Positions 8,169 through 55,692 of a stretch of 64,000 bases of DNA are shown here, piece by piece. The stretch spans positions 12,480,512 to 12,544,511 of the forward strand of contig CM073330.1 in NCBI GenBank assembly GCA_037043015.1, written 5' to 3'. Within the stretch, counting starts at the first letter, position 1. Each line of letters begins with the position of its first letter. Position numbers and translations under genes: made by a program. The stretch is from Bryum argenteum. Taxonomy: Eukaryota > Streptophyta > Bryopsida > Bryales > Bryaceae. The notes under the pieces were generated by a model that worked only from the letters and a program-made list of their open reading frames with translations, did not search any database and was not told where the DNA came from.

Positions 8169-8176
8169 ACTCTACC

Positions 8177-11860: not shown

Positions 11861-12631
11861 ATGATGAAGGCTTTGGCTACGGAGATGCAAGAAGCACGGG
11901 CCAGCTTGCATTCAACCCAGAAGGACTGAGACATCGCCACACAGGAGGCTCGAAGTGTGGAGTTATTCCTCCTGGGACTCGAGGGACAACTACGATGCTT
12001 GCAGATGTCTTCATCAGATGATGAAGAACGAGGAGTAATCGACACCAAGGAGTCCATTTTGATGTCAATGAAGACTGAGCAGGAGATGAAGTTGGTGAAT
12101 TGTAAGCGTGATGCCGAGAAGAAGGAAGAAGAGCTTCAAGAACTTCAGGACAGGCTCGCGCTCAAGCAGCCTCAGCTTTCTGCTTTCAGCGAAGAGCAGT
12201 CAAAGTTGCAGAGTGGAAGTCGCCCGTTAGCTATACAACCATGGCCTGTATCATATCCAAAACCGTCCGGGTCTCTCTTAGATAAGAAATATATTTTGGT
12301 TACTCGTTGTAGTTTGTGTACATTTGAGTTTCCTCAGTTTGACGTAGTGATTGCTAGCTGTCAACACCTTTATCACCCATGGTGTGCTCTAGTGGTCTTC
12401 AGCAAAGGAGCTAAGTGTGTGGAACCAAAATGTAATGAGATAGCCGACCCCAAATGGCAGAAGAGTTTTGGATGGGGGTGGACAGCTGAAGACACTGCGG
12501 ACCCGCCAATTGAGACCGTCATCGGCCATGAGTCCCCTGAGCGAAACGAAGGCGAGCCGTCAAGTTTTCGACCAAAAGCGCATGCAGGTACAATGGTTTC
12601 TCGCTTCCATGCCAATGTCTGTGGAAAGTAA
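11861..12631 (+). pseudogene. Coiled-coil plus RING-like protein relic
   Basis: Reading from the ATG at 11861, the frame is open for 256 codons to TAA at 12629 apart from one TGA at 11927-11929. A CGA to TGA change would explain that stop. The N-terminal half is rich in Glu, Lys and Gln (EKKEEELQELQDRLALKQ) and likely a coiled coil. The C-terminal half has CSLC, then SCQHLYHPWC, then CVEPKC, a RING-H2-like zinc pattern with an atypical last pair. A similar coiled-coil plus RING layout occurs in the large ORF at 58831-61164, suggesting a shared type of accessory gene. Function, for example as a ubiquitin ligase, is inferred from the fold only. Confidence 0.5.
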
Positions 12632-13260
12632 TTTATGTGCACCGAGTAGTACCCCTTTTAACTGTTTTACAGCTAATTTGTGTATTCCAGGTACAGTCGA
12701 GGGAAAATGTGTAGTGATAGTAGCAATGAACTTGAACATGTGTAGAAGTGTGTAGAAGTGATTGTACATGATAGTGTAGTTGGATAGTTTAAGTACTTGC
12801 TTGTAGTTTGTAAATACTATAGATACAGTATGGAAAAGAAATGTACATTTGTACTTTGTTTACATACTCTATGTATAGAACTGGTCAACTTTCATATTGT
12901 AAATGTAGTACAATGGTTGAAAAGAGTATACAAGGTAGTTCAAATAAATAACAAGGGTACAACAGGGGATGTGTAAGTATTAGAAATATACTACTGGTAC
13001 AATAGGGGTAGGTTGTAGTATTTGAAGTACAGTGAATGTATATATTGTACAAGAGTGACTTAAATCTTTAGTTTCGGAGTACATTTAGTTTCGGAGTACA
13101 ATTTGCAGCACAGGTTGTATAATTTTACTCATGTTAATGCACTAAATTATTTTGTACTTGTCGGTTGTACAATAATTACTTTTTTACTGTATGAGTGGTA
13201 TGTGCAGACCTTTCACCAAACTTTAAGCTGAATTTACGTGGCATTGGAGTGGGGAGCAAA
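12632..13260. repeat. GTAC-rich intergenic spacer
   Basis: This spacer contains about 15-20 GTAC tetramers, mostly in the contexts TGTAC, AGTAC and GGTAC, where about 2-3 are expected by chance. It separates the RING relic from the SET-type relic. No coding region is supported. Confidence 0.6.
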
Positions 13261-14735
13261 ATGTCTCTTCTGAGAAAGGATTCAGTTGTGCATACTCCTA
13301 CTTCAGCACGAGTTGCAGATGTTGGTTGCAGTTCCAACGAGGAAAGGCGTGAGCCAGAAGTGAAGGGATTTGTAGCACCTTTGCCTCGACCGGCGCGGGC
13401 TACTCACCCTCTCTCCAGAAGCCCATGTGGGACAGGAGCCCCATCGACAAGTACTATTCCTTTTTCATATCAAGGTAAGACAACCGTTTACAATTAGGTG
13501 CTTGATTTTTTGAAGGATCTGAATTGTTTGGATTTTTGACTTGGGTCTTTTTTTTTGTAATGCAAGGCCTTGTAAATGCAATTCCCAATGATGACCCCAG
13601 TTCACCGGATAGAAGGGGTTTGGATTCTTCAAAAAAGGACAAGGATGGTGGGAGCAAAGAAGAAGGAGATACGCCGGAGGACTTGCAATTGCCATTTGTG
13701 TGCGAGCCCATATTGGGAGAAGGTGCGAGCGAAGATACCCCTGTGCTACATGTTGCTGAACATGTGCAGGCCGACAAAGCCCAGCCTGTGCCGTTTGAGG
13801 GGTTGGAAGAAAGTGAGGAAACAATGGCGTTGCCTGAGTCAACACCACCACGTAAGATAGCCTCGACATTTGAGCACAAAGAATCCCCTTCTGATCTCAA
13901 CCTCCTGCATTTGGATCGGGAAGGGTTGTCTACACCTCATGAGAGCCTTGCAGTGGTTGATCGTCCCAAAACGCGCTCGCGGCATCGTAAGTCAGATGAG
14001 GGTGAGCACGGAATTGAAGGGATTGCAACGCCTCTTCCTGCTACCGAGGCAATGAATGTTGATGGTCCAGCAGAACGACGACTTAGCGGTGTTAGGCGAT
14101 CATTGGGCAGTCGAGATGATGCACCAGAGGCCCTTGTCATGGATGTTGACAATACTGGACCAGAAGGGCCTAAGAAGAAGGTTCGGCATATGAATTCACT
14201 AGGCTCCACCTCTGCAGCTACGAGCACGCGTGTCAAACCAAAGGCGGTGGGCAAGAAAAAAGTGGTAAAACAGTGACTTTGCCAAATATTAGTTTCTTGA
14301 ATGTGTTTTGTAGTGTGCGTATCAGCAGTAGTATCATGGTTTTTATTTCGAGAGATACGCATTTTGTAAATGATAGGGCCATTCCTATCTTGCTTTAACT
14401 ATCAATATACATATTGTATGCTTTATGTGGATTTTAAGTTTATGACTTTTGTTTCATGGTTACAGGTTCCATGGTTAGATTTGACTGATATATCTAAGGG
14501 GAAGGAACAACATGCGATACCCGTATTCTGTCCCGTGGCCGGCCCTTGCCCCATGATGGAATTTTCATATGTCACTAAAAGTGCTTTCTCTGAGCATGTA
14601 GTATTAGATGATGGCCTGGAAAGCAGGTGCGCTTGTACTATTCGGAATTGCTTGCTAGAATCAGGTGGTTGTACATGCGGGTGGAAGCATGCTAGGGTGG
14701 ACCAAAATGTACGTCCCGATGGTCAAAAACTGTGA
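13261..14735 (+). pseudogene. Truncated paralogue of the SET methyltransferase (N-terminal region and start of pre-SET)
   Basis: Exons 13261-13474, 13567-14264 and 14466-14735 have GT-AG junctions of phase 1 then phase 0, matching the corresponding exons of the full SET gene at 43217-55692. Exon 2 is acidic and low-complexity and ends in a Lys-rich segment (KPKAVGKKKV) parallel to KPVSKKKG in the full gene. Exon 3 begins VPWLDLTDISKGKEQHAIPV, aligning with [20 protein letters not shown]. It keeps a Cys-rich stretch (CACTIRNCLLESGGCTC) before a TGA. The SET and post-SET parts are missing, so it cannot be a methyltransferase. It might make a short dominant-negative-like protein or be dead. Confidence 0.6.
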
Positions 14736-15599: not shown

Positions 15600-18500
15600 A
15601 TGGGGAATCACCGTTACGGTCTGCGTACTCGCCATGGCGCGAAGATTGCTGGATGTTAACTGGGGATTTAAGGCAGTATAATAGAGGGGCAGTAAAACTG
15701 TTAAGTTACTGTCCTGTCCTGTAGTAACTCGGTTGGATGAAAACTGCCTGTTTTGGATGAAAACTTCCAGATGGATGAAATCTGGTGGTTGGATGAAGTC
15801 TGGTGGTCGGATGAAAACTGTTGGCAGTTAGGGTTTTGGGAGTGGCGGCTAGGGTTTTGGATGGGGTTGTGGGAGAAGGGGTTGCAAAGCTCATTTTTCT
15901 CTCTGGCTCATGGAGAGAGCTTTTGAGATAGGAAGTTTATGTGTGTAGGATATGATTGCAGGATTGTAGGGAGATGCTGTTAGAGCAGTTTTCAGGACTC
16001 TAAGGGGGAGGGAATCCAGATAGTGAGATCAGTAGGGAGCAGAATCATGTACAGATCTACAATGAGTAAAGAGAAGGAATTGATTACATTGGGTGTAAGT
16101 GTCTGGAATTGCAGTAGGAGGGCTTGAGGAACCAGGTTAGTGGATTCACTTGGTGGTACCAGTAGATCTGGTGTTTAAATGAGTGAGTATTGTAGTTCAG
16201 ACCAAGGAGAGTAGAAAAATGTATCAGATCTAGAGAAATACCATCAGGATTTGAGTAGATCTAAGTTGACAGTTTCAGATCTAGGATCCGGATTTTGGGT
16301 AGTTTCGGGCGATTTCGAGGCGTCTGCAAATTTTTGCGGGAGTTCGAAGAGCGTTAGGGCAAAGATTTATTTTTGAAGGAGTAAGAAAAAGACTCCTTTC
16401 ACATTGGCGACCATGCAACAGTTCAAACCATGTGGCTCTAGCTGCCCACACCAGGGCGATGCAGATCCGTCTTGTTCTAAGGGTGACAGACACACGATGG
16501 CGATCCAGGTGCAGGGGAGCAGATCTACTACTTCCAGGGAGCAGATCTGCACTAGAGCCGTAGGGAATATTCAACGACCAACCTGGAGAGGGCGCATCTA
16601 CGAGCCGAGGCTCTCTCTGCAAAGAATAATCGATAGTCACCCAGACCCAGATCGGGAGGCAGACGGTCTTGACAGGACCAGGAGTACGAAGGACTAGTAC
16701 CAGCGGGACCGAGAGGAGGATCAGGGCGAGATTGTTACCGCCCACGTCACAGGTAACCGGAGACCAGCGAGAACCACAAAGAGCCCATCGGGACCACCGC
16801 CGCACACTCAACGGAGGAGATAGCGGCGAACTAGGAGATCAAGGCAACCGAGGCGTAAGACCGATGCTGACCACGCTAGCCAGGATAAGGGCACCGCCAG
16901 ATTCATAGGAGTGCCGTAGTATTTAAAGTAGTAGAAAATAGGGGAGAGGACTCTCTGTAGTCACCGTAGAAGCGAACCCTTGGTGGAAACATCACCCTCC
17001 ATTGTATTACATTTGTTATCTGATGAATACAAAGGCCACCGAGCCTACACTCTCTCCCATTTCTGTGTCTCCCTCTCACTCGGCATTTCACTTGTGCGGC
17101 TAACAATGACTGCAGGGACGCCATGAATGCCTAACGCCGTCCTCCTTCCCCAAACTTCTACACTGTCACCGAGGACACCGAGACCCCGCGGTAGCTGTAA
17201 GTTCGGTTAGGTCTCCCGTGCTCGACATCCGAGCCTCGCAGGCCATACCCACCACCCAGGCTCCATGTCCACTGTACTTCACCGGTCCCGCTCGTAACCA
17301 GAGGTTCCCCACGGTAACCGGTTCACCTTCTGCCAGCCTCCAAGGCAGCTAACAGTGCTGCCGTTGACTTAGAAAGACTTCCTCACTCCTAGAAAGTCAC
17401 CTCTGTGGCCATTCGCTTACCAAGTTTGCCCGGCCACCCATCTATTCACGTTCTTCTATCAACAGACTCTCGATGAGCTCGTAAAGCATTCCATCCTCGG
17501 TAACCCAGGATAACATTTTGGCGACCATGCTGGGGATGGAATGTTGAGTCATCCCAGAAAACAACTGAAATCATAAACAGACAAGAAACATGCCTCCACG
17601 AAAAGCAACAGAGAAGAATGCAGAACCTGAAGAGGCTGCACCCCAAGATGACCAGGATACCATGAGAGAATTGCTCCAATGGATGAAACAGCAAATGACC
17701 GATTTGGCAGCAAAAAATGATGCTACCAATGCCAAGATCGAATTGCTAAATTCTCACTATCTCCAGGGAATAGGTACGTCTACAACTATCCCAAATCCAC
17801 CTCTAGTCACCATGGCAGGACCATCAGAACTCCCGTCCAACGATCCTATGATGGCTGCGTCAATGACATCCAAAGAACGAGACAGACTCATCAAGTTACC
17901 AAAAATACCTTACCCGGTTTTGATGACTCGGTGACCCAGTTAGCACGTCGTGCGCAGTTTTAAAGTAATAGCACGAACTAACGGCGTTACCAGCACGGAA
18001 GATTTACAGAATATCTTCGGAACCACGCTCCAAGGCAACCACATCAACTGGTATATTGACTTTGAGGCCGAACACTTGTTACCAACGTGGGAAGAAATGG
18101 AACGTAGTTTTCTGCAGAAATTGAGAAAAACTAAAAACAAGCTCGAAATTCTCCGAGCGTTAGGAAACATTCAGCAGGAGAGAAATGAACCCGTTGACAA
18201 ATTCTACGATAGATTCAAACAATTGGCAGACAAACTCAGTCAACGACCCGAGGAAGACTACCTGTGCGAATGGTTCAAGAAAGGATTATTACCGTGGATA
18301 CAAACAAAGGCATTATCATCCGCGGGAGTGAAAACACTACAAGACATACTAGTGCGGCCAATGATATCAGCAGAGAGAGCTCACCGCTATTGATAAATCT
18401 CAAACACCATTGTTACCACTTCCAACAACCCGAGTAACCACCCGCTCAACACTCACCCCATGCGTTACGTGTGGAAAACTTCACGCAGGGCGCTGTTGGT

Positions 18501-21500
18501 TCTCCAATACGACACCGAAATCCGATGATGCCAGGACTACACGACCAAAGCCGCGCCATGTATCCAGAGGAAATCGATGTGGATGCTCTCAACCTGGCCG
18601 AAATGACGGTTGTTGGGAATGTGGATCTCCCCATCACCGACGGGGCCAATGCCCAGTTTTAAAACAACGCTGGGCCAACACTCGCACTGCCTCAGACACC
18701 AAGGCACACCACAGCAACACAGATCCGAGCTCCAGCAATAGGAGAGGAGGAGTCACTCTGACCGAAGTCCACGGTACCAACATCGCCACCATAAGCACTG
18801 CGGCAGTAACAACCAGGTCAAAGGCTACCGTAGACAACCATGTCGTCGAACACCGCAAACCATTTGCGGAACAGCACTGGAAGAGACTACACAATCTACG
18901 AACAGAAATACAAGCCGACTTGGAATCCGCGGTAGTCCCAGACCTACAGCAGATATTAGAAAAGACTGACGTAAAAATCACGTTAGCAGATCTGCTCAAA
19001 ATTAGTCCCGAACTTCAAACATATATACAGAACATTCACAAAACCGCGACCACGACCACGGCAACCGTGGAAATCAATGCAACCACCATCGACACCGAGG
19101 CAGCAGTCATACACATCCAATTGGGACATCATCAATTAAGAAATGTGCTGGTCGACGGGGGTTCCGGGGTTAATGTAATCAGCGATCACCTCAGACAACA
19201 GTTGGGATTACCACGACCAACAACAGCGCAGTTTGTCCTACGAATGGCCAATGATGCCCCGGTGACACCATTAGGAATCCTAGCCACCGTGGCTATCACA
19301 ACTCATGGCATTTCAACACCGGCGACCTTTGTTGTCATCGATATGCCAAATAGCAGCAATTTCCCTATAATATTGGGGCGACCATGGTTACGTGACATGA
19401 ACGCGGTTCATGACTGGGCCAGAAATCAAATCAAGATCCGAAGATATGGGAAAACTATGATAATCCCCGTAGACAGTTGCATTACCAGAGAAAAAATCAA
19501 ACAAATACGGCACCAGGCTGGTACGGCATGGGGTAAAGGACTGACGCATGAACAAGAGGCCCTGGTGTTCCATGCCGACCCTGATCTCATTCCGCTAGCC
19601 GAGATTCACTTGGCCAGCGTGGTTTCCCAGGAAGATACACTTGATATTCCCTCCAGGTTTACCACCGAAGTTGCCGAAGGCGTCGTCATTGACAACACTC
19701 CTGCATCCAAAGCACTAAGTCAGCAAGTGATAACTGGCTGGACACATGGGTCCAAAGAACAAGTACAGCTTGTCAACCTTGGTACCGAACAGGAGCCAAA
19801 AAATGTCAAAATAAACGCAGATGCTCCTAATGACATCAAACGAGCTGCCCATAGCACTCGTTCAAAGAATACCATGATATCTTCGGCGTGGACACATGAA
19901 GACTTGAAGGGGATACCAAGGACGATAGCGGAACACACAATAGATTTGGTACCAAACGCTCATCCAGTCCAACAAACAGAGATACCGAATGAATCCTAAC
20001 TATGCTATCAAGGTCAAGGCAGAATTGGATAAACTGCTTAATGCCAAGTTTATTTCCCCGGTAGACTCGGCACCATGGTTGTCTCCAATGGTAATCATTC
20101 CTAAGAAAAACGGCGCTTTACGAATCTGTGTTGACTTTCGCAAACTCAACGCAGCGACTAAAAAAGACCACTACCCTCTACCTTACATGGAAGAAATCAT
20201 CGATGAAGTGGCAGGACACGAAATGTACTCATTCCTAGACATTATCAAGTAGCAATGGCAGAGCAAGATAAAAACAAAACCGCGTTTTCCACGGAGTGGG
20301 GGCCATATCAATTCGAAAGAATGCCGTTCGGAGCCAAGAATGCGCCTATGACATTCCAACGTGTCATGGAATTAATTTTTCGTCCTTATCTAAAGAAATT
20401 TTTCCGGATTTACCTAGACGACGGCACCGTTTACGGACAAATGCAAGACCATGTTGACCAGCTGAGACAGATATTTCAGGCCTGCAGGGAAAACGGGGTG
20501 AGCCTCAATGCCGACAAATGTATGTTCCTATTTTTTGCAGGAGTCATCTTGGGATATATCGTCTGCAAGTATGGCAAACTCCCGGATCCATCTAAAATAC
20601 AGGACATCCTAGATATGACCCCACCCAGAGACCAAAAAAAGGTGTCCAAAGACTACTTGGCATATCACGGTTCAATCGAATGTACATAGCAAAATTAGCC
20701 TATCTAACGGCACCAATAGCTGCCTTAAATCATCCAGGCTATTCCTATCCACGAGATTGGACTCCGGCAGCACAGGCAGCCTTAGACAAAATTAAGCAGG
20801 CGTACTCGGAGGCACCAATCCTTCTAGCACCCAACCCAAGAAGCCATTCCACGTACACACGACGCCTCCAAAATCGCCGTGGGCGTGATGTTAGCACAAA
20901 ACATCAATGGTAAACACGACCAACCGGTGGCGTCGCTAGCGAGTTACTAAACCAAGCAGAGCGCAATTATTCCACCACGGAAAGAGAAGCGCTAGCCATG
21001 GTGTATGCAGTAAAGAAATTCCGACATTACCTGTTAGGAAATAAATTCCGGTTCATGGTAGACCACCACAGTTTATCCTATCTGGTAAATCAGCCGTTAA
21101 TCACCGGAAGAGTGGCACGATGGATCATGATTCTCATGGAATATGACTTGAGGTAGTTTTGTACTGGAAAACGCCACATTGTAGCAGATTATCTCTCCAG
21201 GGGACACCAACGCTACCAAGAAGGCATAGATGACTCCTTTAACGAGCCTTATATCCAAGTCGCCTCACCGCAACTCCATGTCGGCGGCATCACAGAGGTT
21301 CAAAAAGATTGGAGATATGACATCATGGAATACTTAAAACAAGGAAGTATTCCGGAGGGGTTGACTGGCTCCCAAAAAATCAGCTTCGTGAGAACCACAT
21401 TTCCATACACGCTGATAGACAACCATTTATATCGAAAAGGCACCGATTTAGAGATACGACTCTGTGTGCCCAACAGGGATCAGCATCAAATCATTACCAC

Positions 21501-24500
21501 ACTCCATGCTGGCCCCGCAGGCGGACATCAAGGACCGGAGACCACGGTCCAAAAGATATTAGCAGCCAAGTATTGGTGGCCCACGGTACACAAAGATGTC
21601 AACACCTATGTCAAAAATTGTCACGCGTGCCAGACCGCAGCTACCAATTTCCAGCATCAGGGACGAGTGCCACTAAAATCAATCCCACCACTGGGACCGT
21701 TCCAAAGATGGGGACTCGACTTTGTGGGTCCAATCAAACCGGCAACAAAACAGGGATACAAATACATCTTGGTTGCCACAGATTATACAACCAAATGGGT
21801 AGAGGCGAAACCATTACGCAACAATGCTGCCATGGTCACCGCTACTTTCCTCTACGAGAACGTAATCACTCGTTTCGGGTGCCCTTTGGAAATAGTTTCG
21901 GATCAAGGCACGCATTTCGTCAATGCAGTCATCGAAGACCTTATGGACAACCATCTCATCAAACACAGAACCAGTACAGTCTATTATCCCCAAGGAAATG
22001 GACAAGCAGAATCTACCAACAAAACTATCCTGACAATGTTGCGCAAATTCGTGATCGCCAACCAAGTCGACTGGGATGACTGTTTGCCTGCAGCTTTGTG
22101 GGCCTACAGGGTAGCTACAAAAGCGGCCACCCATTTTAGCCCGTTCGAACTCGTATACGGGACACAGCCATTGTTACCGACAGAGTATATTGTGCCAACC
22201 TTTAAATCCATGCAGCCACGTGATTACCAACCTCACCGTATCCTCGCGACCCATGGACGATTTACACAGCTTGAAGAATTCCGGGAGAAGCTAAACTAAA
22301 TATCCTACGAAGACAAGCATTAAGTGCAAAATATTTCCAAGGCACTAAACCTCCTCGGGTATTTCAAAAAGGTGATCAAGTACTATGGTGCCCAAGAGAC
22401 CCAAAAATCAGGAAAGCCAAATTCGGGACAATTTGGCATGGACCCTACAGGGTGCAGTTAGTGTTACCCAATAACACAGTACTTTTGGTAAATAATGACA
22501 ACTACGACGCCCAGGCCACCATAGTTAACGCGGCAAAATTAAAGAAATATCATTCCAATACTACGAATCACCAAACCAACCATAAGTCCGGGACAATTAC
22601 AAAATTTACTTGTCCTCGGAAGCACAGAACAAACACCAACACAAGACCTCAAAAGCGTCGCAGAGGCCACTGAAAACATGGATATCACGGATGGCAAGGA
22701 TAGCGGGAGGCAAATACCCCAATATTACATGTGAGTCACATACAAGTGGCCTACATAAACGACCAAGACCATCGGTGCCGTCATGCACGATTAGACACCG
22801 CAGCCTTCAAATAAAATAAAATAAGGACCCCATCAGTCACCTACACAGTCATCATGGATATCAAAGGAGCCACTACAACCGCCAAAACGGCTCTTAACCG
22901 ATGGCCACCGACAAAGACTTACTCCCACTCCGCCGACATTAACTCCCACCACCACGGAAGCCACAGACTGCTCAAAATCGGCACCTTGCCCTCACTGCTC
23001 TCTCTCTTTTACACTACCGCGCTGCCTCGCTGCTCACTCTCGCTCCGCGCGCCGCCATCCCTTGTCCCCGCGGCCAATTGCTCCGATTTTCTTGCGTGAC
23101 CTCTCAGTCACACCATCCACGGTTTCCATGGCAGCCGCAACCTCACTCCACGAAGCCGGGCGGAGGCTCCCTTTTTCATGCCGCGACTCCTCCCGGATCG
23201 GGCGCAGCAGAATCGATGGAGTTTGGACACAAAACACGGGGTTGCATCGTTTTTGGGAAGATATGAAAACCTGGAGGCTCAACATCAACCACTGCAAGCA
23301 ATTTGTTGAGACAATGGCGCCTCAGAGCTGTGGAGGCACTTACCCCACCGGTACCGTAGATGGCGTGCAGGTGCAATTTTCCGCGGCTTACCTGTATCAT
23401 CAGTATGGGTGGGACGGCACGGGCTCACACAAATGGACAGAGAATGCGGATTCCCAAGGCCGGACATCGCGCAGAGGTTGCCGGGGTTAGAGCAGAAGAA
23501 CAAGGCAGGCTACGACACTTACACAGTCGGCGCAATGCTGAAGGAGCCATGGTTCGCTCGCATCCGCGGTATCATCAGCCAAATCTATTGCAGGTGCAAT
23601 CGCAACAAAGATTTTTACCAAAGACAATTAGAGTTGTTGTTTCCGGGCCGATCACAGAGCCAAAGTAAACCGGGGATCTTTGTTCAAGACCACCTGCGTG
23701 TTGAATTGCAAAATCACCGTGAGGTACACGGATTACTCAAGCCCCATTGGGCCTTTCCTCTCCACTTACATCCAAATAAGTACCTACGGTACCACAAGGA
23801 GCACAACAGATTACCTCCCATGTCGAGCTTCGTGAAATCCAGCGTCGGAAATTGCCATCGCCACCAAGCCGGTCAAGGACGCCGCGGCACCAAGCGCCAG
23901 CAAAAGGCCACGCACGGAGTACGAGGACACCGGAGTTGACACACAGCAGACATTGGCGGAGCGGCTGACCGACAGTCATGCGGCCATGGCCGCTGTGTGG
24001 AACAACAGGTGCAAAGATTTACAATCGGCGAGAGGGACAAAGGCACCTAAGGGAGGAAAATGACCGATCAAAGAGACCATGCAGATCTGCACACACACAA
24101 TGCGCCAAAAGAACGATGAGTTAGGTCGAAAGCGATGCGAAGGTGGAGGATGCAAACCGCGCGCCCCGGACTTTTCGTAGTCAACTAGCCGCAAAACAAA
24201 TCGATCTACAGGAAGTGACTTCACAGCTTAACGGGGTCGCCAAGGAGAGGGACAACGCAAGGGAGCAGTTGGTGTCATTGACAGCACAGAATGACGAACT
24301 TCGGCAACAATGCCGAAATCTGATAGACACCAATCCCTCCAATCCCGAGGCGCAGAGTTTGGAGGAGCGACGTCAATCTTTAGCCACCGAAGCCGAAAAC
24401 TTTGAGGCAAACAAACAAGCTTGGGTCCATGATGCCGCAGCTGTCTTGGGCGAGATACTTTTCAAAGCCATTCGCCAAAATCCTCCACAGACAGATGACA

Positions 24501-43216: not shown

Positions 43217-46200
43217 TCAATCAAGTTTCAGCGCTGTAGAAACTGGGTCCATGGAGCCGTAATATGCCACAAATGGATCCCTGCAGAACTTTGAGCCGCA
43301 AGCGCAACCTCCCACATGTACAGAGTACTCCTCACCATAGTCCTGCAGGGTACACAATTCAACACATCACGCAATTTCATACTTACGCAGTACAATTGAA
43401 TCAATCGAAAGCCAAAAAACCAAGTTGTAATAAATAAGGAACTTACCCAAGTCAGTTCTTCACCGCTTTGTATGTCAGTCTTTGCAAAGTAAGCAACCGT
43501 GAATAAACATGGGTCGCTGATGTCCACCTTCACTGGCATGTCCAAAAGATTTGCATCCTCACACCTGTGATTCAAAAAACGAGCCACATTCCCGAACTTT
43601 AGTCCGTCTATACTTAAAGCTTGGTCGTCGGTGCAGGCAACTTCGGCCCTCCAATCAGCATCAAGACTGCATGTGTATGAATTGCGTTTGTCGTACGGTT
43701 TGTATCTCCTCATAATCTCTGCATTAGAGACTATTTCACCATGGTAGGCCACGACGAACGTTCCCTTTACGATGGGTTCAAGAGACTTAACTCCCCACTG
43801 CCTACAATCACCAGTCCAAAATACTGCTAACTTAGCATTTAGTCCTTTTTGCACTACCCTATTACGACATTTTCGACTACATGGACAAGTTAGATTACAC
43901 TCGAAAATAAAATTGCGCGGAACATGTCCATGGCACCCTACTGGTTTATCCTTAGAATTAGTTGGTACTGGAGATGCAAACTTGTAACAGCCATCGCCTG
44001 GATCACAGTAAATTGGCGCGCATACCTACACAAACAAGAGATTCAAGATAAAATTTTGCCGGTAAAAAGAAGGAAAAACAATACATATGGCAGTAGGTAC
44101 TGTGTTTCCTTCAGAATACGGCAAGCCGGCATGTTACAGTGAAGTTCCCGAAAATGTACCTCACGACCTCCTGTACGCACAATGTCGGTGAGCCGCCCGT
44201 CAGCAGTATAAGGCGCAATGCCACCGTTTTTGGCAATGCAAGAGCAACCTGTAACAGACTCACCACAATCCTCGACAACACACTTACAGGACCTTTCCCG
44301 TTGGTGATCAACCATAGCAGTATCATGCAACACACTTTCCGGCACATACACAAATTCGGTCACATTGGGGTGTCCATCCACAGGCACCTCTATAGGGATT
44401 GCCATGGGCTCCTTCCCCTTAGCAATATCATTCTCATCATACCAAGTGACCTGCGTTGGTCACGATTCAACAAAAATTAATATGTATTGCACAAAAGAAT
44501 AGACAATAAGCAATTTACTTATCGCCAGGTACAGAAGCAAAGAAAATTGCAATGCAAAAAGAAGTTCACATCTCCACAATGCGTTTTTTCTTTACCCCCT
44601 TCTTCTTGCTCACCGGCTTCCGTTGGACTGATGGAGCGGCCTTGCCGATCGGGGATCCATGCACGGCGGCCAAATCCTTCATCTTCGGTGCTGCAGATCC
44701 TCCCACCGCCTCTTCCTGTGAATTGGCCTTCATTTTCTTTGCGTCCTTCGACCCAATATCTTCGCAGGGACCCCGAGACCTTCTACGTGTCTTCGGTACG
44801 CCTGATCCATCAGCATCTGAAGGATCTACGGGTACTTCTGGACCCCTAGCTCGACTTGCCACTGCCCAGCTGTCGCAACCCTTGCTAGCTCTCCTTGGCT
44901 TACACCAACTTTTTCCCAACTCTAGCAAGTGTCACGAGCGCTAACTCTGCACATCCCCCACATGCACAAAGTTAGCTCTCCATACCAACCACCAAGCTCA
45001 CCGCTTGGTTATCAATCCCTCCTACTCATGCAACCGGGACTCAACCCCTTCGTAGGTAGCCAATGGTTAGGTGCGGACTTCCACTTATGTCCAAGGCCCA
45101 ACTTGGTGGCACTCCCATACCACGCGGCCTAACCGCACTTGGTGGTGTCTCCTCACCACCGCCCATGACCACCATGGTGACCCCAAGTGTTAATGGCATA
45201 TTAGTATTTGTTAGTGAATCCGACATATACCAGTCAACCCGACCTGTACTAGTCGACCCGACCTACCAGACGACCCGACCTTTACCGGTCGACCCGACCT
45301 TTACCGGTCGGCCCGACCTACCAGACGACCCGACCTTTACCGGTCGACCCGACCTTTACCGGTCGGCCCGACCGACCAGTCGACCCGACCTACTAGTCGA
45401 CCCGACCTTTACCGGTCGGCCCGACCTACCAGTCGACCCGACCTTTACCGGTCGACCCGACCTACTAGTCGACCCGACCTTTACCGGTCGGCCCGACCTA
45501 CCAGACGACCCGACCTTTACCGGTCGACCCGACCTACCAGTCGACCCGACCTGTACCGGTCGACCCGACTTTTACCGGTCGACCCGACCTACCGGTCGAC
45601 CCGACCTTTACCGGTCGACCCGACCTTTACCGGTCGACCCGACCTTTACCGGTCGACCCGACCTTCCTGTACCGGTCTCGACTAGACTCTATAGCTAGAT
45701 CCAAATTCAGATTCATATCTAGATCCAGATCCAGATCCCGATCCAGATCCAGATCCAGATCTAGATCCAGATCCAGATCCAGATCCAGATCCAGATCCAG
45801 ATCCAGATCCAGATCCAGATCCAGATCCAGATCTAGATCATGGATCTTCCCTTTGTACCTTCTTCTTATAAGTAAAGGCCTTCTTGTGTGATGAAACACA
45901 TTGAGGTTAGGCATGTTTTACAATGTAGTGGCTCTTGTGTCTTGTTTGCCCTACCGGTAGGTAGAGCATGTATTTCCTCATTAACACCAAGGCCACCAAG
46001 TAATTACAACGCCGGCGGTGAGACACCACCCCACATCGGTAGCACTCATGGTCCTCATTTTGCCTATATGAGTCCCCGTGGTGAAGCCCCAACACTAGCT
46101 CCCCCACCGGGACTCACCTTGTCCTTATGAGCCACCGTGATGAAGCCCCAACACTAGCTCCACCCACCGTGCCTCATTTTGCACTTTGAGTCCCCATGGT

Positions 46201-49200
46201 GGAGCCCCAACACTAGCTCCACCCATTGGGACTCACCTTGGCTTGGGAGTCCCCATGGTGAGGCCCCAACACTAGCCACACCACTCGGGACTCCCACCTT
46301 GGTCACCACCAAGGCACCATGGGAGTGGGGAGGGAGACCAGCCCTCCCCATAGTATACTCTGTGGGATTCGGCAGCCCCTGGTCCTAGGTGAAGGGCTGG
46401 ACCCTCACACCTCTAAAGTTTGGAAGACCACCCAATCTCCCAATGCCTTAGCCGCTGGAAGGCCCCGGAGACTTCCCGAACCTTCCAGGGCTCGTATCTA
46501 CCTCGTCCCGCATCCAAACGCGACGAGCGACCACTCTATCGACATCTACTCGTCAAGCAGATGCCGATAGACACCTTCCTTGCCTCATTCCGACAAGTAT
46601 TGAGGGAGTTATGCCCCTCTGAAGATTCGGGAGTCCCGGGCCAGCTTCCCAGTCCAGCACTGTCCCTGGACAGCACTCCCTTTAGTCCCACAATCTTCCA
46701 ACTCCCATAACTTTTAGCTCACACCTCCAACTGAGGTGCTCCTTAGCATCCCGGAATCGTGGCAACATGAGCTTCCATAATCTCATGTCCATTCCCTCGT
46801 GGCTCCTAGTCTCCGTGGGTGAGAGGCGTCTCCAACGCCCGGGGTCCTCTCCCACACTAGGCCCACTTAGGTTCCCTTCACCTTGGCACCCCAAGGCCCG
46901 GGCGTCACTCCGGTGTCCCCCTTGGGCCCTTGGTGTTGCGGGCACTCCTCAAGGAGAGGTGCGCGACACTCACCCCCACCTAATGGAGTCGATGCCCTCA
47001 TCGACTATACTTGTAGTCGGTCACACCAACTCTTGGGTTGCCATCCCCATTGGTGCAAAGATTGTGTTTCACCAGGGCGCGACCCCACAATGCACTCTCA
47101 AACTTTGGCAAAGTCTCAAAGGTGTCGTCACTAGGTGGTCCGTTTAGAACCCCGGACTTCTTCCAAGGCAACTAAACTACTCTAGACCCACCTACTTTGA
47201 GACCCTCTTGGATTGCCCTTACCTTGGCTCTCCAAGTTAGGCTCCACTAGCCTAACACTTCTTCCTTGACTACTAGGCTGGACCTCAATGCTTCCACCAA
47301 GTTGTCTTGGTTGCAAACCCAAGATGGCTTTTACACCACGACTCGATCGCACGGGGTAATGCCAAGTTCGCCCAACTCGGATCCCACTATCTCTTTCGAG
47401 GCATGGGTTCATGACTCCCATGCACTAGCTTGCACTAGTTTGTGGGAGTGGCGCTTTTATGAGCACGCGCCATTACCTTGTCCCCGCCGGACAAGCCCAA
47501 GGCCAAGGGACTTCATGGTTTTATCCACTCTTTCTCCTAGCCTTGGTCCCCATTACTCGGCCTTCCCAACTCGGTTTCACATCTCTATTCCCCCTCTTCC
47601 ACCAACTTAGCACAAGTACAAGACTAGGACTCCATCTCATACTCTTCTCTTTGCACACACCAAAGCCAAACTTTATTGCCAAATCCAAAGAACAAGTACA
47701 AGTGTTGTGGATCTACGCCCAAGCTACAAGTCATCCTCCCCACTACGGAGGTTGATGTCCTCATCAATGCCTACGTTGCTTCTTGTTGGAGCTCCTATTC
47801 TTCTCAAAGTTCTCCACCACCTCCTTAGCATTCACCATGTCCTTTGCCGCCACCCACGTTGCTTCTTTCTCGTGGTATCCTCGCCACTTCACAAGGTATT
47901 CCTTGCTCTTGTTTTTGAGGTTCCTACTCTTGAGGATGGCCTCTACCTCATATTCCAAATGTTGTCCAACCAACTCTGGTGGTGGCCGAATCACTTGCTT
48001 GCGATCCGCCACAAGGTATCCTCCTTGAATGGCTTTAACAATGAAACATGGAATGTTGGATGCACTTTGATCTCGGGTGGTAGCTCCAACTTATACACAT
48101 CTTTGAACACCCGTTCCACAATGGGAAACGGACCCGCAAACTTGGACATGAACTTTGGAGTGAGGCCTTCGGGCATGGTGAAGTTCTTCACATTCAACAA
48201 CACCTTTTGTCCCACCTCATACTCCACTTCACGTCTTCCGGCATTGACTTGCTTCTCATAGCGCCTTCTTGCCTTCTCCAACAACAACTTGGTTTTTTCC
48301 AACATATGCTCCCGCTTCTTGGCCAAGTCTTCACCATCTTGGTTGAACTCTGGTGTTGAATGTGCCCCCTCGAGAGCTAAGTCGGCGAGGTTGGAGTGGC
48401 TCCACTCCATAGGCCACTTTGAAAGGTGACTCCTTAGTCGCCGAGTGTGTGGCCGCATTGTAACTGAACTCCGCCAACCCCACATAGTCTACCCAATCAC
48501 GTTGGTCCGCACTCACAAAGTTCCTCAAGTATTGGTTCAAGACCCCATTCACCCTTTCGGTTTGCCCATCCGTTTGAGGATGAAAGCGAGTGCTAAATGT
48601 CAACTTGGTTCCCACCTTCCTAAAGAAGTGTCTCCAAAATGCACTTGTGAACTTTGGGTCTCGATCGACACAATCACTCTTGGCAACCCGTGATGCTTCC
48701 ACCATGCATCGAGAAAGATCTTGGCGGTCTCAAGCGCGATTCAGGTTCCTCTAGTTGGCACCATATGAGCCAACTTGCTAAACCGATCCACCATCACTAA
48801 GATGGCATCATACCCTTGCGACTCGGGAAGGCTTGTGATGAAGTCCATAGACACACTATGCCAAGGACCCGGCGGAATTGGCAATGGTTGCAACAAGCCC
48901 GCTTGCTTTTGATATGAAGCCGGTTAAGTTGGCACTTCACACAAGTCTTCACAAAGTGGGTTATGTCATCTTTCATCCCCGCCAATAGTACCTCCTTGAC
49001 ACCGTTGCAATGGTAGCCTTTTCTCCCCTATGGCCGGCTATGGGACTATCATGTTCTTCCTTCAAAACCAACAATCTAAGCTTGCCTTGAGGAACATACA
49101 CCCTACTTTGCTTATACTTGAGCAATCCATTCACCAACTTGATCTCCTTGAGCTTCTTGCCCTTCCTAAGATCACCAAGCATTTGTTGTGCCTCGGGGTC

Positions 49201-52200
49201 CTTCATGTACCCCTCTCTTATCCGCCGTTCCCAATTGCCTTCACCCTTATACATGAGCCGCAAGACTTGGGTGGTGCTCATGGCATGAAACTCTTCCTTT
49301 CTACTTAGCGCATCCGCACCACATTGTCACGGCCCGGTTTGTGGATCAAGTCCACATTCATGAGCGCCAAGGTATCATGCCACCTCAATTGTTTGGCACT
49401 CATTTGTGCTTGTGTCTCAAAATACTTCAAAGACACATTATCGGTGTAGACCTTAGTCTTGTGCAACCCCAAGTAATGTTGCCATGTCTTCAAACAATGC
49501 ACCACCGCAAAGAGCTCCTTCTCGTGAGTTGGCCATCTCCTTTGACACCCATCCAACTTCTTGCTCTCATAGGCAATTGGCCTACCATCTTGCATCAAGA
49601 CGCCTCCAATGGCAAAGTCACTTGCATCTGTGTGGACCTCAAAGGGCTTATCAAACTCGGGGAACTTCAACACCGGTGGAGATGACAACTTGTTCTTGAG
49701 TTCCTCAAAGGCTTGGTAGCAAAATTCATCCCATACTTGGTTCACCCCTTTTTCAACAAGTCGGACAAAGGCTTGGCAATCTTAGAGAAGTTGCGTATGA
49801 AGCGGCGATAGTAGTTTGCTAGGCCAAGGAATGACCTAAGTCCCTTTTGTGTAGAAGGCCGCTTCCACTCTTGAATTGCCTTCACCTTCTTCATGTCCGG
49901 CTTGATTCCATCTCCGGTAACCACATGGCCCAAGAACTCCATCTCAAGTTGTGCAAACTCACTCTTTTCCCCATTAGCATAAAGCTTGTTGTCTCTAAGC
50001 TTCATGAGTACGCCTCAAGGTGCCTTGCATGTTCCTCGGCCGTCTTGGAAAACACCAAGATGTCATCGATGTAGACAATCACAAAGTCATCCATTTCCTC
50101 TCGAAAGATGGTGTTCATAAGGGTTGTGAATGTTGAGGGTGCATTGCACAACCCAAAGGGCATCACAAGGAACTCATAAGACCCATACCTTGTGCGGCAC
50201 GCGGTCTTTTCTACATCCGCATCCGCAATGCGGATTTGGTAGTAACCCGACTTCAAGTCTATGCGACTAAAGTACTTAGCTCCCGCCAATCTATCAAAGA
50301 GATCATCAATTCGAGGCAAAGGGTAGTTGTTCTTGATGGTCACCTTATTCAAGGCCCTATAATCAATGCACATCCTAAGCTTGCCATCCTTCTTGTCCAC
50401 AAAGAGGACCGGTGCACCATATGGTGACTTGCTTGGTCTCACATAACCCCTTTCCAACAAGTCGTTTAGTTGCTTCTTTAGCTCCATCAACTCTTTTTGG
50501 TTTAACCGATAAGGTGCCTTAGAAGGTGGCTCGGCTCCGTAGCACCTCGATCTTGTGATCCACTTCTCTTCTTGGGGGTAGCTCTTTGGGTAACTCATTG
50601 GTAAGCACATCCTTGTACTTGGCCAACACCTCTTGAATTTCTTTGGGAAGTGGTTGTTGCACCCCCTTCCCCTCATGCCCAAGTTGCTCTTCACGAGCCA
50701 TCACCACAAATTGATGTTCCAACATTTGGTCTAAAGAGACCAAGTTTAATTTGCCCCCGCTATTGAAGGGCCACGAGAGTTAACTTCAACACTAACTCCT
50801 TGCCATCACGGCGCACCACTAACCGTCTTTGGCTTGCGCCTCACATCCACCGTGTGCGCCTCAAAGAAGGTATCCCCTAAGATGAGGTCTACCTCATCCA
50901 TCTCACATAATGTGAAATTCTCAACAAACTCTAATGTCCCACACTTCAAGGTCACTTGCAACGCCACTTCCTCCGTCTTGTGCGGTTCGCCCTTTGCAAA
51001 ACGCACATTGATGGGCTTGCTTGCCTTTTGCAAAGGGCAAGCCCAACTCCCTTGCTAGTTTGGGACTCATGAAGGAGTGCGTTGCCTCGTATCAACCAAA
51101 CATGAGACATCTTTGTCCTTCACTTGGGCCTCAAGAAACAAGAGGCCCGGCCTTGGCTTGAGGCTACTTGCCTTGGCCACAAAACCTCCTTCTAGTATGC
51201 GGTCTTCAACACAAGCAAGACTTGCAATGGTACTCACCTTCTTGTCGGGGCACTCCGCAATGAAGTGGCCAATCTTACCACAACCATGGCACCTCTTGGC
51301 CTTGGTGTCATCACCTTTGTCTCCCCCTTTAGATGGCTTTCCCCCTTGGTGTTCCCTTTTGTTAGAGGCTCCACCATCCACTTGTCCCTTGTGTTTGTTG
51401 CCAAAGCCAAACTTCTTGCGCTCTTTGCCTCGAGCCGTATTCCTATTTGATCCACTTTGTTGAGAGGGGCCACTTGACTTCCTCTCGGGTCCATCAGCCT
51501 CAATCCTTTCAACAATCTTGATGATGCCTGCCACATCCTCAGGAAGTTTTGGGAACTTGAACAAGGCATCCACCACCCACTTTTGAAGCCCACCCAAAAA
51601 GATGCACTTCTTAGAGAACTCATCCATCTTGGGTGTGACATTCATTTGGGCATTGAAGTCACGCACATAGGCCTTGAGAGACCCAATGTGCCTCATTTGC
51701 ACCAAGTTCATGCCTTCCCTCAACTCCTGGTACTCCGGTGTGAAGCGTTCACTCAACAAGTCTTTGAAGCCACCCCAAGTCAAGTTTGCCACCAACTCCG
51801 GCTCTTGCTCCTTTTTGCTTGTCCACCATTGAAGAGCATGATCCTTGAGAAATGTCACCGCAATGGAAACCTTGTCCTCCTCATCCGGCTTTTGGACATC
51901 ATAGTAGTTATCCATCTCAAGAAGGAATTCCTTCACCTTCCTTGCCTTACCAAGTCCCGAGAAGGTGCTTGGCATGTTTACCTTAGCCAACTTTTTGGTG
52001 GAAGATGAAGGTCGGGACCCTTGCATCATGAGGTGTTCAATCAACCTCTCTTGGCGATCCCTTTCTTCCTTCCCACGCTTGAGCTCTTGATTCACGGAGT
52101 CCATGAACTTAAGCATTCTCATTTGGAAAGCCAATTGAGGATCTTGTTTTTCCACCCTTTAAGACTCTAGGCGTCTCGACCTAGAGCGCTCCTCTTCACC

Positions 52201-55200
52201 CAAGGGCTCCTCTTGAAGTGACAATTCCATTTGCTCATTGCCCTCACTAGTGGCAGCTTGCTCATTGGAGTCATGAGAATGAGCCTCACTTGTAGGATCG
52301 GGGTCTTTGTTCCCCCTCGTGCGTGGCCGCTTGGAAGCTCCAGGCTCATCACCCTCTGTGGTCTTCTTCTTGCCCATTGCTCCCTCACAACTTTGCACTT
52401 GGGTACTAAAAGCCTGCTCTGATACCAAGTGTCGCAACCCTTGCTAGCTCTCCTTGGCTTACACCAACTTTTTCCCAACTCTAGCAAGTGTCACGAGCGC
52501 TAACTCTGCACATCCCCCACATGCACAAAGTTAGCTCTCCATACCAACCACCAAGCTCACCGCTTGGTTATCAATCCCTCCTACTCATGCAACCGGGACT
52601 CAACCCCTTCGTAGGTAGCCAATGGTTAGGTGCGGACTTCCACTTATGTCCAAGGCCCAACTTGGTGGCACTCCCATACCACGCGGCCTAACCGCACTTG
52701 GTGGTGTCTCCTCACCACCGCCCATGACCACCATGGTGACCCCAAGGCCACCAAGTAATTACAACGCCGGCGGTGAGACACCACCCCACATCGGTAGCAC
52801 TCATGGTCCTCATTTTGCCTATATGAGTCCCCGTGGTGAAGCCCCAACACTAGCTCCCCCACCGGGACTCACCTTGTCCTTATGAGCCACCGTGATGAAG
52901 CCCCAACACTAGCTCCACCCACCGTGCCTCATTTTGCACTTTGAGTCCCCATGGTGGAGCCCCAACACTAGCTCCACCCATTGGGACTCACCTTGGCTTG
53001 GGAGTCCCCATGGTGAGGCCCCAACACTAGCCACACCACTCGGGACTCCCACCTTGGTCACCACCAAGGCACCATGGGAGTGGGGAGGGAGACCAGCCCT
53101 CCCCATAGTATACTCTGTGGGATTCGGCAGCCCCCTGGTCCTAGGTGAAGGGCTGGACCCTCACACCTCTAAAGTTTGGAAGACCACCCAATCTCCCAAT
53201 GCCTTAGCCGCTGGAAGGCCCCGGGAGACTTCCCGAACCTTCCAGGGCTCGTATCTACCTCGTCCCGCATCCAAACGCGACGAGCGACCACTCTATCGAC
53301 ATCTACTCGTCAAGCAGATGCCGATAGACACCTTCCTTGCCTCATTCCGACAAGTATTGAGGGAGTTATGCCCCTCTTAAGATTCGGGAGTCCCGGGCCA
53401 GCTTCCCAGTCCAGCACTGTCCCTGGACAGCACTCCCTTTAGTCCCACAATCTTCCAACTCCCATAACTTTTAGCTCACACCTCCAACTGAGGTGCTCCT
53501 TAGCATCCCGGAATCGTGGCAACATGAGCTTCCATAATCTCATGTCCATTCCCTCGTGGCTCCTAGTCTCCGTGGGTGAGAGGCGTCTCCAACGCCCGGG
53601 GTCCTCTCCCACACTAGGCCCACTTAGGTTCCCTTCACCTTGGCACCCCAAGGCCCGGGCGTCACTCCGGTGTCCCCCTTGGGCCCTTGGTGTTGCGGGC
53701 ACTCCTCAAGGAGAGGTGCGCGACACCAGCGTGCCAGGTCTTCGTTGCCCATCTGGGCCGGCTCCCCCACAACATCTGCACTTCCAACAGCCACGATGTG
53801 GTGTTCTTGGTCGACTGGAGTTTCCTGGGTGGCAGTTGGGAAGGGACTGAGGATTGGAGTAGGTGTAGGACATATCTGCTTTGAAGCCTCGGGCACAATC
53901 TTCATCAACGTAGCCCCTGTCGCCCCTACGTTGCGAATAACCAATCTTCCCTGCATAGTCGTTGGCGATGTTGCAGCTCCTGCTGGTAAAACTCCACCCT
54001 CAGCCGGTATCGGTTGTTCTTCGGTTAGCGCCACCACGGGTGGAGCTTCAATCGCTCCAATGCTTGTTGGGGACGATACTCCTCTCACTGCTGGAATAGC
54101 ATGCAGTACTAATTGCGGAGTTGGTTTACGAGAGGTTAATGGCCGAACTGGGGAGCAGATGTTTCCTACAGTAGGTGCATTGTGTGGTACAACATCTACT
54201 TCGGCTAGTCCACTATGCTCACCCATTGGTACAATCGCACTGCCAGGCAGTACAGTCTCATCGGCCATGACTACACGCTCCTCAGACTGGGGCATACACT
54301 CCTCGACCGGGAGTACACTCTCCTCACACTGGGGCATACACTCCTCACCCGGGAGTACCCTCTCCTCACACTGGGGCATACACTCCTCACCCGGGAGTAC
54401 TCTCTCCTCACACTCGGGCATACACTCCTCGACCGGGAGTACCCTCTCCTCACACTCGGGCATACACTCCTGGACCGGGAGTACACTATCTTTACCAAAG
54501 GGTACAACCTCTTCCTCCATCAGTACAGGCACGGGTAGAGTCGGTTGAGTATCGCCTACTATTGGTACACTCTCGGGTACAGCTGATCCAGTGTCGACCA
54601 CCATTGGTACAGTCTCGAGTACATCCGATACGATGTTGTTGACTATGAGTATACTCTCGACTACAGCTGGTTCCGTGTCTTCGACTATGGATACATTCTT
54701 GGTTACACCGGCCTCTATGTCGTCGACTGTGGGTACACTTTCGGTCATACTCGGTTGCATAGCATCCAATATGGATACACTCTCTTCTACTCTCGATACA
54801 CGGCCATCTACAATTGGCAGCACTTCATTAGGGGCCTGGACTTCCTCCTGGGTAGCCTGTACACAGTCATGTACTGCCTCGCTACGCCTTGTAGCCTGAA
54901 TGGACGGCTGGGCTGGTCCCGGATGCGTTGGTTTCACAAAACCATGTGAACTTTGTCGTTGTTTCTGCACTTCACTCCCTCTTAATTTGGCCCCCACCCT
55001 CGGTTTCCAGAAACTGGGGTCGACTTCAATGACCTGGGCCGCATCATCTGCTCCAGCCGAATCGCCACCATCATGATCATTCTCCTCATTAGAGCCATCA
55101 TCTCCGTCTCTCTTAGATGATGCAGTGTCTTCTTCAGACTCCGACTCCTGCTGTGGAATACCCTTCAAGATATCTGCGCAAAATTCAAGGCTTAGCAAAC

Positions 55201-55692
55201 TTTGTCCAATCCAGCTCATATGCGCTTGCAAATAAAACCATCCTGTTATTTGTACTCGACTCAGAATGGCACATGCAACCCAAGCAAACGGAGGAAACAG
55301 ATTGGAATGGAAAATTTGATGTGCTGGCTGCAGTTGGAGCAGTAAACCATAAACTCACCTGCTTGTATAGAAGGGTGGTGGAGTACTGCCCTAGATCTTT
55401 TGGCTGATCTTGGAGTTTGTGCAATCACGGCCGGTGTACATTTCCTGGTCGGTGATGGTGGCGTTACTAACGCCATGTCCTCTGTCTCACCACGAGACAT
55501 CCTTCGCGTAGTTGGAGGAGTGGCCGTTTCTGCTACAGCGGCCGTTTCCACTACTTTTCCAAGGTCCCTTGCATGACTCTTGGTACAGGAACCTGGCTGC
55601 TCCTCACCGAAATCTTCTTCATGTGCATGGCTACTCGTGTCTATCCCCACCGCATGATCCATGTCCTCAGACTCTGCACGCCAAATCAACAT
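43217..55692 (-). CDS. SUV39/SUVR-like SET-domain histone methyltransferase, split by a chromovirus
   Basis: Exons on the minus strand are 55692-55359, 55173-53726 continued as 44865-44596, 44450-44085, 44025-43447 and 43342-43217. All junctions fit (phases 1, 0, 0, 0) and sum to 1,041 codons including the stop. The N-terminal half is acidic and repetitive, with about a dozen 14-aa repeats ([14 protein letters not shown] type). Then come a pre-SET Cys cluster ending [23 protein letters not shown] motifs [30 protein letters not shown] and ELTW-DYGEEY, and post-[15 protein letters not shown] replaces the usual NHSC. No SRA domain is seen. The family methylates histone H3 lysine 9; that activity is inferred. 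The gene is interrupted after codon GCACGCTGG by the chromovirus, so this copy is dead as it stands. Confidence 0.75.
45225..45670. repeat. 19-bp tandem repeat (TACCGGTCGACCCGACCTT)n
   Basis: About two dozen imperfect units of 18-19 bp lie inside the solo LTR. The core includes ACCGGT and GTCGAC palindromes and CGACCCGACC. Confidence 0.85.
45700..45840. repeat. (AGATCC)n hexanucleotide microsatellite
   Basis: About twenty units of AGATCC with occasional AGATCT and GATCCC variants follow the 19-bp repeat within the solo LTR. Confidence 0.9.
46969..47763 (-). other. Chromovirus 3' untranslated region
   Basis: Between the chromodomain stop and the LTR there is no supported coding region. The last bases before the LTR, read on minus, are AGGTGGGGGTGAG, a good polypurine tract. 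Confidence 0.5.
47764..48485 (-). CDS. Chromovirus integrase C terminus and chromodomain
   Basis: The upper frame (48485-47991) has the GPF/Y-like segment [22 protein letters not shown]. The lower frame (48012-47764) encodes the chromodomain: [29 protein letters not shown], ending in a basic tail. Aromatic cage positions fit the pattern (Y in EYEVE, W in VKWRGY). Chromodomains of chromoviruses direct integration to H3K9-methylated chromatin. A short overlap with a frame change joins the two frames. Confidence 0.8.
48331..49281 (-). pseudogene. Chromovirus integrase zinc finger and core (frameshifted)
   Basis: Zinc finger parts lie in 49281-48973 ([12 protein letters not shown]) and 48985-48797 ([11 protein letters not shown]), in different frames. 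The core region is in 48705-48331 ([31 protein letters not shown]). The first catalytic Asp segment near 48840 is split by a frame change. This copy cannot make intact integrase. Confidence 0.75.
49305..50761 (-). pseudogene. Chromovirus reverse transcriptase and RNase H (frameshifted)
   Basis: RT motifs are [55 protein letters not shown] and the catalytic YIDDILVFS (50694-50002). A frame change near 50003 leads to the RT connection segment ([19 protein letters not shown], 50005-49742). Another near 49743 leads to RNase H ([34 protein letters not shown]). The domains are otherwise complete. Confidence 0.82.
50806..52155 (-). pseudogene. Chromovirus gag and protease (frameshifted)
   Basis: The gag frame begins at the ATG at 52155 ([14 protein letters not shown]). 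It has the capsid-like core ([25 protein letters not shown] region) and the zinc knuckle [14 protein letters not shown]. The protease starts with CLVDT, where a 1-base shift at about 51085 gives an early stop; its remainder is in 51033-50806 (DLILGDTFF). Confidence 0.78.
52413..52428 (-). promoter_or_regulatory. Chromovirus primer-binding site (tRNA-iMet type)
   Basis: On the minus strand TTGGTATCAGAGCAGG lies next to the 5' LTR. TGGTATCAGAGC is the common plant site complementary to the 3' end of initiator tRNA-Met. Confidence 0.85.
52430..53725 (-). repeat. 5' LTR of the chromovirus
   Basis: A 1,296-bp LTR without the solo-LTR insertion, showing the empty site (CCCCAAGGCCACC at about 52740). 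Differences from the other LTR that I noticed are two single-base length changes in C or G runs and one substitution (CTCTTAAG versus CTCTGAAG). Confidence 0.9.
54271..54740 (-). repeat. 42-bp coding repeats in the SET gene
   Basis: Consecutive 42-bp units encode 14-aa repeats. One type is [14 protein letters not shown] (about 54271-54490), the other is degenerate ([14 protein letters not shown] type) on to about 54800. The units carry GTAC words at a fixed place (GGGAGTACACTCTCC). The repeats keep the reading frame. Confidence 0.75.

Follow-up and report, generated by a model that had tools for sequence, protein, structure and literature searches.

A family of DNA transposons in the moss Bryum argenteum with a SUV39/SUVR-like SET gene and a RING-like gene beside the transposase

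Transposons with chromatin enzymes and the moss element

DNA transposons carrying a gene for a SET histone methyltransferase have been reported from Phytophthora, where they are of the HarbingerS and MuDR types (Kojima & Jurka, Repbase Reports 2014, cited in an excerpt of PMC12730594). The same excerpt describes TET/JBP genes as cargo of fungal DNA transposons, among them Dileera, Kyakuja, Zisupton, hAT7, PHISTA, Plavaka and others, and SETMAR is known as a SET domain fused to the Hsmar1 transposase (excerpt of PMC9062482). An element of comparable composition is described here from a moss, starting from a window of 64,000 bp (C10:12480512-12544511) in the 258.8-Mb, 25-contig assembly of Bryum argenteum; 'window' denotes this whole stretch throughout. 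In keeping with a moss host, the product of a host SUVH gene with a single open frame (L002) shares 66% identity with its best named match, from Ceratodon purpureus, and no more than 51% with the named vascular plants among the 120 matches listed out of 848. An original prediction, made from the letters of the window, had proposed a DNA transposon pairing a transposase with a SET gene. The element is very probably a DNA transposon bounded by terminal inverted repeats (TIRs), with a usual cargo of three genes: a transposase, a convergent SUVR/SUV39-like SET gene and, on the strand of the latter, a RING-like gene. The proposed pairing is supported; the third gene had been missed, and the window contains two nested copies, named A and B below, rather than one.

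The moss element shares with HarbingerS and SET-MuDR the general plan of a DNA transposon with a SET histone methyltransferase gene; it differs in the host, and it has a RING-like third gene, which those elements are not known to carry. The TET/JBP-carrying transposons of fungi are similar in that their cargo is an enzyme modifying chromatin or DNA, but the enzyme there is a dioxygenase and not a SET protein, and both host and transposase lineages are different. In SETMAR, too, SET and transposase have been joined in evolution, and its SET is found among the solved structures nearest to that of the window; it is, however, one host fusion gene, whereas two separate, convergent genes form a recurring unit in the moss, and a fused SET-transposase was rejected for the window on this ground. 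Plant SUVR1 and SUVR4 have Pre-SET followed by SET, in the same order, but are host genes, and in the tree the main group formed by the element SETs does not include them. No moss transposon with a SET gene was found in print, in a search confined to openly licensed papers. The moss element stands apart from the SET transposons in print by its target site duplication (TSD) and its host, and apparently by its transposase lineage; in addition it has the RING-like third gene.

A recurring three-gene unit and its ends

In the window, the transposase gene (+, 15600 to 42501) and the SET gene (-, 55692 to 43218) are convergent and their 3' ends are 0.7 kb apart, as had been predicted. Genome searches scored 129 places for the last transposase exon, 148 for the middle exon, 148 for the SET exon and 150 for the RING-like gene. 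Because each search scores part of its candidates (129-150 places), the counts are minimum values; a copy interrupted by an insertion may also be counted as two places. A convergent SET is located within 3 kb at 93 of the 129 last-exon places and within 20 kb at eight more; at a single place the SET is on the same strand, a divergent SET was never observed, and 27 places have none within 20 kb. By chance, 0.79 places were expected to have any SET place within 4 kb (maximum 5 in 1000 draws), in a model where the length of contig 11 was guessed as 7 Mb and four weak rows of the SET search were excluded.

The union of both transposase searches comprises 177 places, with ends assumed for 48 middle-exon places unmatched by a last exon; from one further search only 61 places were entered, by hand. 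A convergent SET was found within 20 kb in 127 of the 177 places, and 119 have a RING-like gene in the orientation of SET within 40 kb. SET and RING occur together in 96 places, 95 of which show the order transposase, SET, RING, while a downstream SET on the wrong strand was seen once among the 177. When RING-like genes are taken as the starting point, 98 of the 150 places lie 5' of the nearest SET, in the same orientation and within 20 kb, 4 are arranged otherwise and 48 lack a SET in that range. The SET gene is multi-copy and travels with the transposase, although 50 of the 177 places have no SET among the matches listed; neither a transposase never accompanied by SET nor a single-copy host SET gene, the refuting outcomes named in the original prediction, was observed.

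A family of host SET genes in the vicinity of a common transposon could yield some adjacency, in which case the transposases would have inserted nearby by chance and no unit would exist. Such a coincidence can be regarded as refuted, since order and strand are the same in 95 places, with common TIRs and TSDs, against the 0.79 expected, and near-identical units occupy three sites, each with a TSD of its own.

Two further observations concern the distribution of the gene set. In a transposase subgroup (L067, L068 and C8:12737311) the RING-like gene is about 3.7 kb away and no SET was found between the two; SET was possibly lost in one lineage. The listings of transposase relative P0032 and SET relative P0136 both name an ENA contig 213,937 bases in length, which hints at an occurrence of the pair in another genome too.

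The ends of the element were defined from several copies. The unit at C8:11269707-11281943 is 12,237 bp long, is bounded by perfect 18-bp TIRs and contains exons of transposase (+) and SET (-) together with a RING-like gene (-). Across the 9.9 kb compared, its sisters on C2 and C3 share 97.6-98.0% identity with it; for the left end the value is 98%, for the right end 95-97%. Alignment of seven other copies at the left end revealed identical first 18 bases in all of them; six alignments start at TIR base 1 or one base earlier, and the remaining one extends 19 bases into the flank. At the right end, the comparison covered two other copies. The C8, C2 and C3 units are flanked by the TSDs AATA, TTCT and ATCT and copy B by ATGC, so that a 4-bp TSD is present in all four insertions for which both ends were read. 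The C8 unit is inserted in a dispersed repeat, and three relatives of this repeat (L074-L076) are without the insert, although the short stretch adjoining the insertion differs in them too. Most listed matches of the flanking repeat are on C1, the largest contig, which may be an unusual chromosome. In the SET gene of the C8 copy the post-SET stretch seems to change frame, and this gene may not be intact.

By its TIRs, its fixed 4-bp TSD and its predicted RNase-H transposase, the family is a TIR (cut-and-paste) DNA transposon. Past transposition can be inferred from near-identical copies at different sites, and the co-mobility of transposase and SET is supported.

The TIR sequence of the family is GGGTRGAAGCAYRCTARGG. 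A TIR pattern, allowing up to 2 mismatches, gave 343+329 matches in the genome, compared with 14+8 for a reversed control. Among the first 100 matches listed, facing neighbours form 14 short and 16 long units; five extra middle-exon places were added by hand for this analysis. The short units are about 0.8 kb (12) or about 1.4 kb (2) in size and resemble miniature inverted-repeat transposable elements (e.g. C1:1832604-1833427). All three genes are contained in 10 of the 16 long units, and the sister of the window copy on C2 (7239842-7251621, 11,780 bp) is one of the long ones.

The transposase of the window matched no Pfam family above the cut-off, the weak Phage_Orf51 match (E 0.001) being below it; of four relatives scanned with E values up to 1, three matched no family and P0106 matched only TEX47 (0.045). 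A transposase with 40% identity is present in Ceratodon purpureus (M758_1G230800). The structure modelled for a related protein encoded in this genome shows an RNase-H/integrase core: Foldseek alone returned NurA for this model (E 9e-4, low probability), and further structural comparison led to integrase cores. On the basis of the model, a DDD RNase-H core is predicted.

TSDs of known transposon groups were compared with the 4-bp TSD found here. Those of MuDR elements are 8-9 bp long and those of Sola elements 4 bp. MuDR was rejected on this basis, while Sola would fit, the comparison being on length only. The MULE transposase domain gave no match in the Pfam scan, no profile having been run against MuDR references. 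The Harbinger group, with a TSD of 0, 2 or 3 bp (excerpt of PMC12730594), disagrees in length as well and was likewise rejected; the transposase relatives gave no Pfam match to a Harbinger-type transposase, Repbase proteins not having been compared. Kolobok, whose TSD is TTAA-specific (excerpt of PMC9587614), was discarded in view of AATA, TTCT, ATCT and ATGC.

The SET gene and its possible role

The original prediction had described the SET gene of the window as full. In its core, encoded by the three last exons, Pre-SET (PF05033, 4e-10), SET (PF00856, 7e-14) and post-SET follow in order and free of stops, the post-SET having been identified by eye in the translation and in a structural alignment; the gene as a whole is split by a Gypsy element. 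The boundary of exon 1 is out of phase in the gene model, and searches were performed with the last three exons, which are free of insertions. The solved structures nearest to the core are EHMT1/2, SETMAR and SUV39H2. The nearest named proteins include the plant SUVRs (SUVR1 and SUVR4, 36-37% identity), and seven unnamed proteins are closer (48-78%). Element SETs are mostly 41-58% identical to the window SET, and the catalytic motifs NH and YxG are retained in 45 and 46 of 46 sequences, respectively. Judging from these similarities, the element SET would belong to the SUV39/SUVR class of H3K9 methyltransferases, its specificity being predicted.

Trees and ratios of nonsynonymous to synonymous substitution rates (dN/dS) were obtained from 53 stretches, which are the best-scoring places and not a random sample; they provided 46 SETs of at least 110 aa, 47 transposases of at least 150 aa, and 40 copies with both. 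A careful tree, which carries a long-branch warning, was built without four rows (ATX, Coprinopsis, Tetracentron and one JGI protein). Here 43 of the 46 element SETs form one group with five unnamed relatives (98/95), separate from four SUVRs and four SUVHs. In a quick tree including the four rows, 43 of the 46 came together at 84 and the C8 type was placed near the SUVRs.

SET and transposase distances are correlated over the 40 copies (Mantel r 0.81; permutation maximum 0.37), and also over the 37 copies left without the C8 type (r 0.75); the two genes have long been inherited together. Median dN/dS was 0.18 for SET (56 of 57 pairs below 1) and 0.19 for the transposase (117 of 117 below 1), for pairs with 0.05<dS<1.2 and at least 100 codons, stop codons being dropped and pairs not being independent. 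SET appears to be under purifying selection, which across the family is about as firm as that on the transposase, and no other result speaks more strongly for SET being of use to the element.

A parasite making the very mark used for silencing parasites is a puzzle. The explanation tentatively preferred is self-marking: the SET protein, acting in trans, would place H3K9 methylation on the copies of the element, and copies kept quiet would spare the host, thereby allowing the element to persist at high copy number. The RING-like protein may be a ubiquitin ligase and as such would perhaps assist SET; the idea comes from SUVR4, which is reportedly linked to ubiquitin. More speculatively, the family may represent an unnamed transposon lineage of mosses, and perhaps of a wider range of hosts, in which a toolkit of SET and RING controls silencing in trans, that of short non-coding derivatives included.

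Alternatively, the element SET, with RING, could counter host silencing, for example through a methyl state or a substrate unused by host readers, comparable to the role proposed for transposon-borne TET proteins and the Vandal anti-silencing protein. This is a doubtful but serious alternative. The sequence and active site of the element SET match H3K9 methyltransferases, and plant enzymes of this kind usually promote silencing, both of which count against such a function; the low SET dN/dS, on the other hand, indicates a benefit, and transposon-encoded TET dioxygenases are read in this way by the author of PMC12730594.

Several results weigh against a unit serving itself through SET. Among the matches listed, 50 of the 177 transposase places are without SET, 23 of them having RING only and 27 neither gene; RING is upstream at 9 places and on the wrong strand at 6, and all RING-like matches are below the Pfam cut-off. 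Three SETs, of the C8 type, are outside the main element group in the best tree, a single clade of all 46 not being rejected (p-AU 0.3), and the nearest neighbours by SET and by transposase coincide in only 17 of the 40 copies. SET is looser than the transposase in the trio formed by the window copy with its two sisters (dN/dS 0.25-0.36 vs 0.05-0.15). Finally, copies without SET would also profit from an enzyme that acts in trans, and short TIR units exist, so that self-damping would be hard to maintain by selection on single elements. The places with transposase and RING without SET, and the looser SET of the window trio, would suit a SET captured once and drifting unused as a passive passenger. 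This is disfavoured already and most improbable, given the median dN/dS of 0.18 and an active site retained among SETs mostly sharing 41-58% identity with that of the window.

About a hundred three-gene places, defined ends, near-identical young units and the good genetics of mosses make the question of self-marking directly testable. Transposons of this kind may also inflate the SET-gene counts of genome annotations.

A second dispersed SET family was observed, with matches of about 342 bp in about 20 places, no Pre-SET seen, and FINSS in place of FLNHR. Its members include L087 (C10:12476500-12477060, 3.6 kb left of the window) and L088 (C1:20302000-20302420); only one place has a transposase last exon within 20 kb, on the same strand.

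Nested copies and neighbouring genes in the window

Coordinates are collected in Table 1. Copy B extends from its left TIR to C10:12558995 (78484 on the window scale), 14 kb outside the window, and is swollen to 63.8 kb by nested insertions. Its RING-like gene is at C10:12556342-12556689, also outside the window. Copy B has both TIRs, a TSD and all three genes of a unit, but the genes are broken. The Gypsy element within its SET gene is a recent insertion, to judge from its long terminal repeats (LTRs). An intron at 41134-41188, present in the first exon model of the transposase, was rejected, and the break near 41130 was taken as a frameshift, because the frames of relatives are continuous there.

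The second, truncated SET gene noted upstream in the original prediction is real; it is not part of the same unit but a remnant of copy A, interrupted by copy B. The Pre-SETs of copies A and B are 40% identical over 72 aa, and the similarity ends at the base preceding the left TIR. The right TIR is followed by ATGC, the same 4 bases that precede the left one; past it, the rest of the Pre-SET exon is found in the frame of copy A (CAVKNGGRFSYSADGRL...), and further on, at C10:12559196, a SET exon (+). The matching TIRs, the ATGC on both sides and the resumed Pre-SET frame therefore indicate that copy B jumped into the SET gene of copy A. One element with two SET genes is ruled out, copy B being inside copy A. 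A transposase of copy A was not found.

The location of copy B within the SET gene of another copy, and of the C8 copy within a dispersed repeat, could also suggest that marks made by SET, or SET bound to them, direct integration to silent chromatin as a 'safe haven'. In a genome rich in repeats, two such cases carry little weight, and such targeting is considered unlikely. The sequence cannot decide between self-marking, anti-silencing and targeting; anti-silencing comes close behind self-marking.

Table 1. Features of copies A and B and of inserted Gypsy elements, in window coordinates
Feature	Position	Strand	Remarks
Copy A, exon with RING-like gene, C-terminal part	11930..12631	+	zf-RING_2 0.013, below cut-off; match at 12122-12478 (C10:12492633-12492989)
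Copy A, open frame upstream of Pre-SET	13506..14276	+	no Pfam match; probably N-terminal part of SET gene, by position only
Copy A, Pre-SET exon, first part	14466..14678	+	truncated at 14678 by copy B; Pre-SET 1.5e-5, below Pfam cut-off
Copy B, TSD ATGC	14675..14678	.	second ATGC after right TIR, outside window
Copy B, left TIR GGGTGGAAGCATGCTAGGGTGGACC...	14679..14709	+	resembles TIRs of C8-type element
Copy B, transposase exon 1, start (MGN...)	15600..15653	+	cut by Gypsy element
Outer nested Gypsy, foreign to transposon	15654..38700	+	LTR pair 92.7% alike, TSD CTGGA
Inner Gypsy, nested in outer Gypsy	16733..26133	+	LTR pair 96.7% alike, TSD GAGAT
Copy B, transposase exon 1, remainder	38701..39521	+	opens with second TSD copy
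Copy B, transposase exon, Cys-rich region and catalytic Asp 1 and 2	40432..41472	+	frame break near 41130
Copy B, final transposase exon, third catalytic Asp to C terminus	41615..42501	+	
Copy B, SET gene, last exon (DY..., post-SET CxCGSxFCR)	43218..43342	-	
Copy B, SET gene, exon with Pre-SET end and SET domain	43447..44025	-	
Copy B, SET gene, Pre-SET exon	44160..44450	-	
Copy B, SET gene, Gypsy-split exon, 3' part	44614..44865	-	
Gypsy within SET gene, foreign to transposon	44871..53725	-	LTR pieces 99.6-100% alike, TSD CCAGC (+ strand)
Copy B, SET gene, Gypsy-split exon, 5' part	53726..55174	-	N-terminal region, repetitive
Copy B, SET gene, first exon	55359..55692	-	3' boundary uncertain

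Other genes are found around the pair. A different transposase-like gene is located at 8096-11006 (+), with a DUF7869 match (PF25273, 1e-30) at 9696-10064. The genes at 58714-61164 (+) and 61731-62825 (-) have related N-terminal halves (49% over 95 aa) and perhaps belong to another mobile or amplified gene family; the former contains another RING-like domain, below cut-off. A protein kinase-like fragment (PF00069, 1e-10) is located at 56613-57272 (-), close to a tandem array (about 55,890-56,130).

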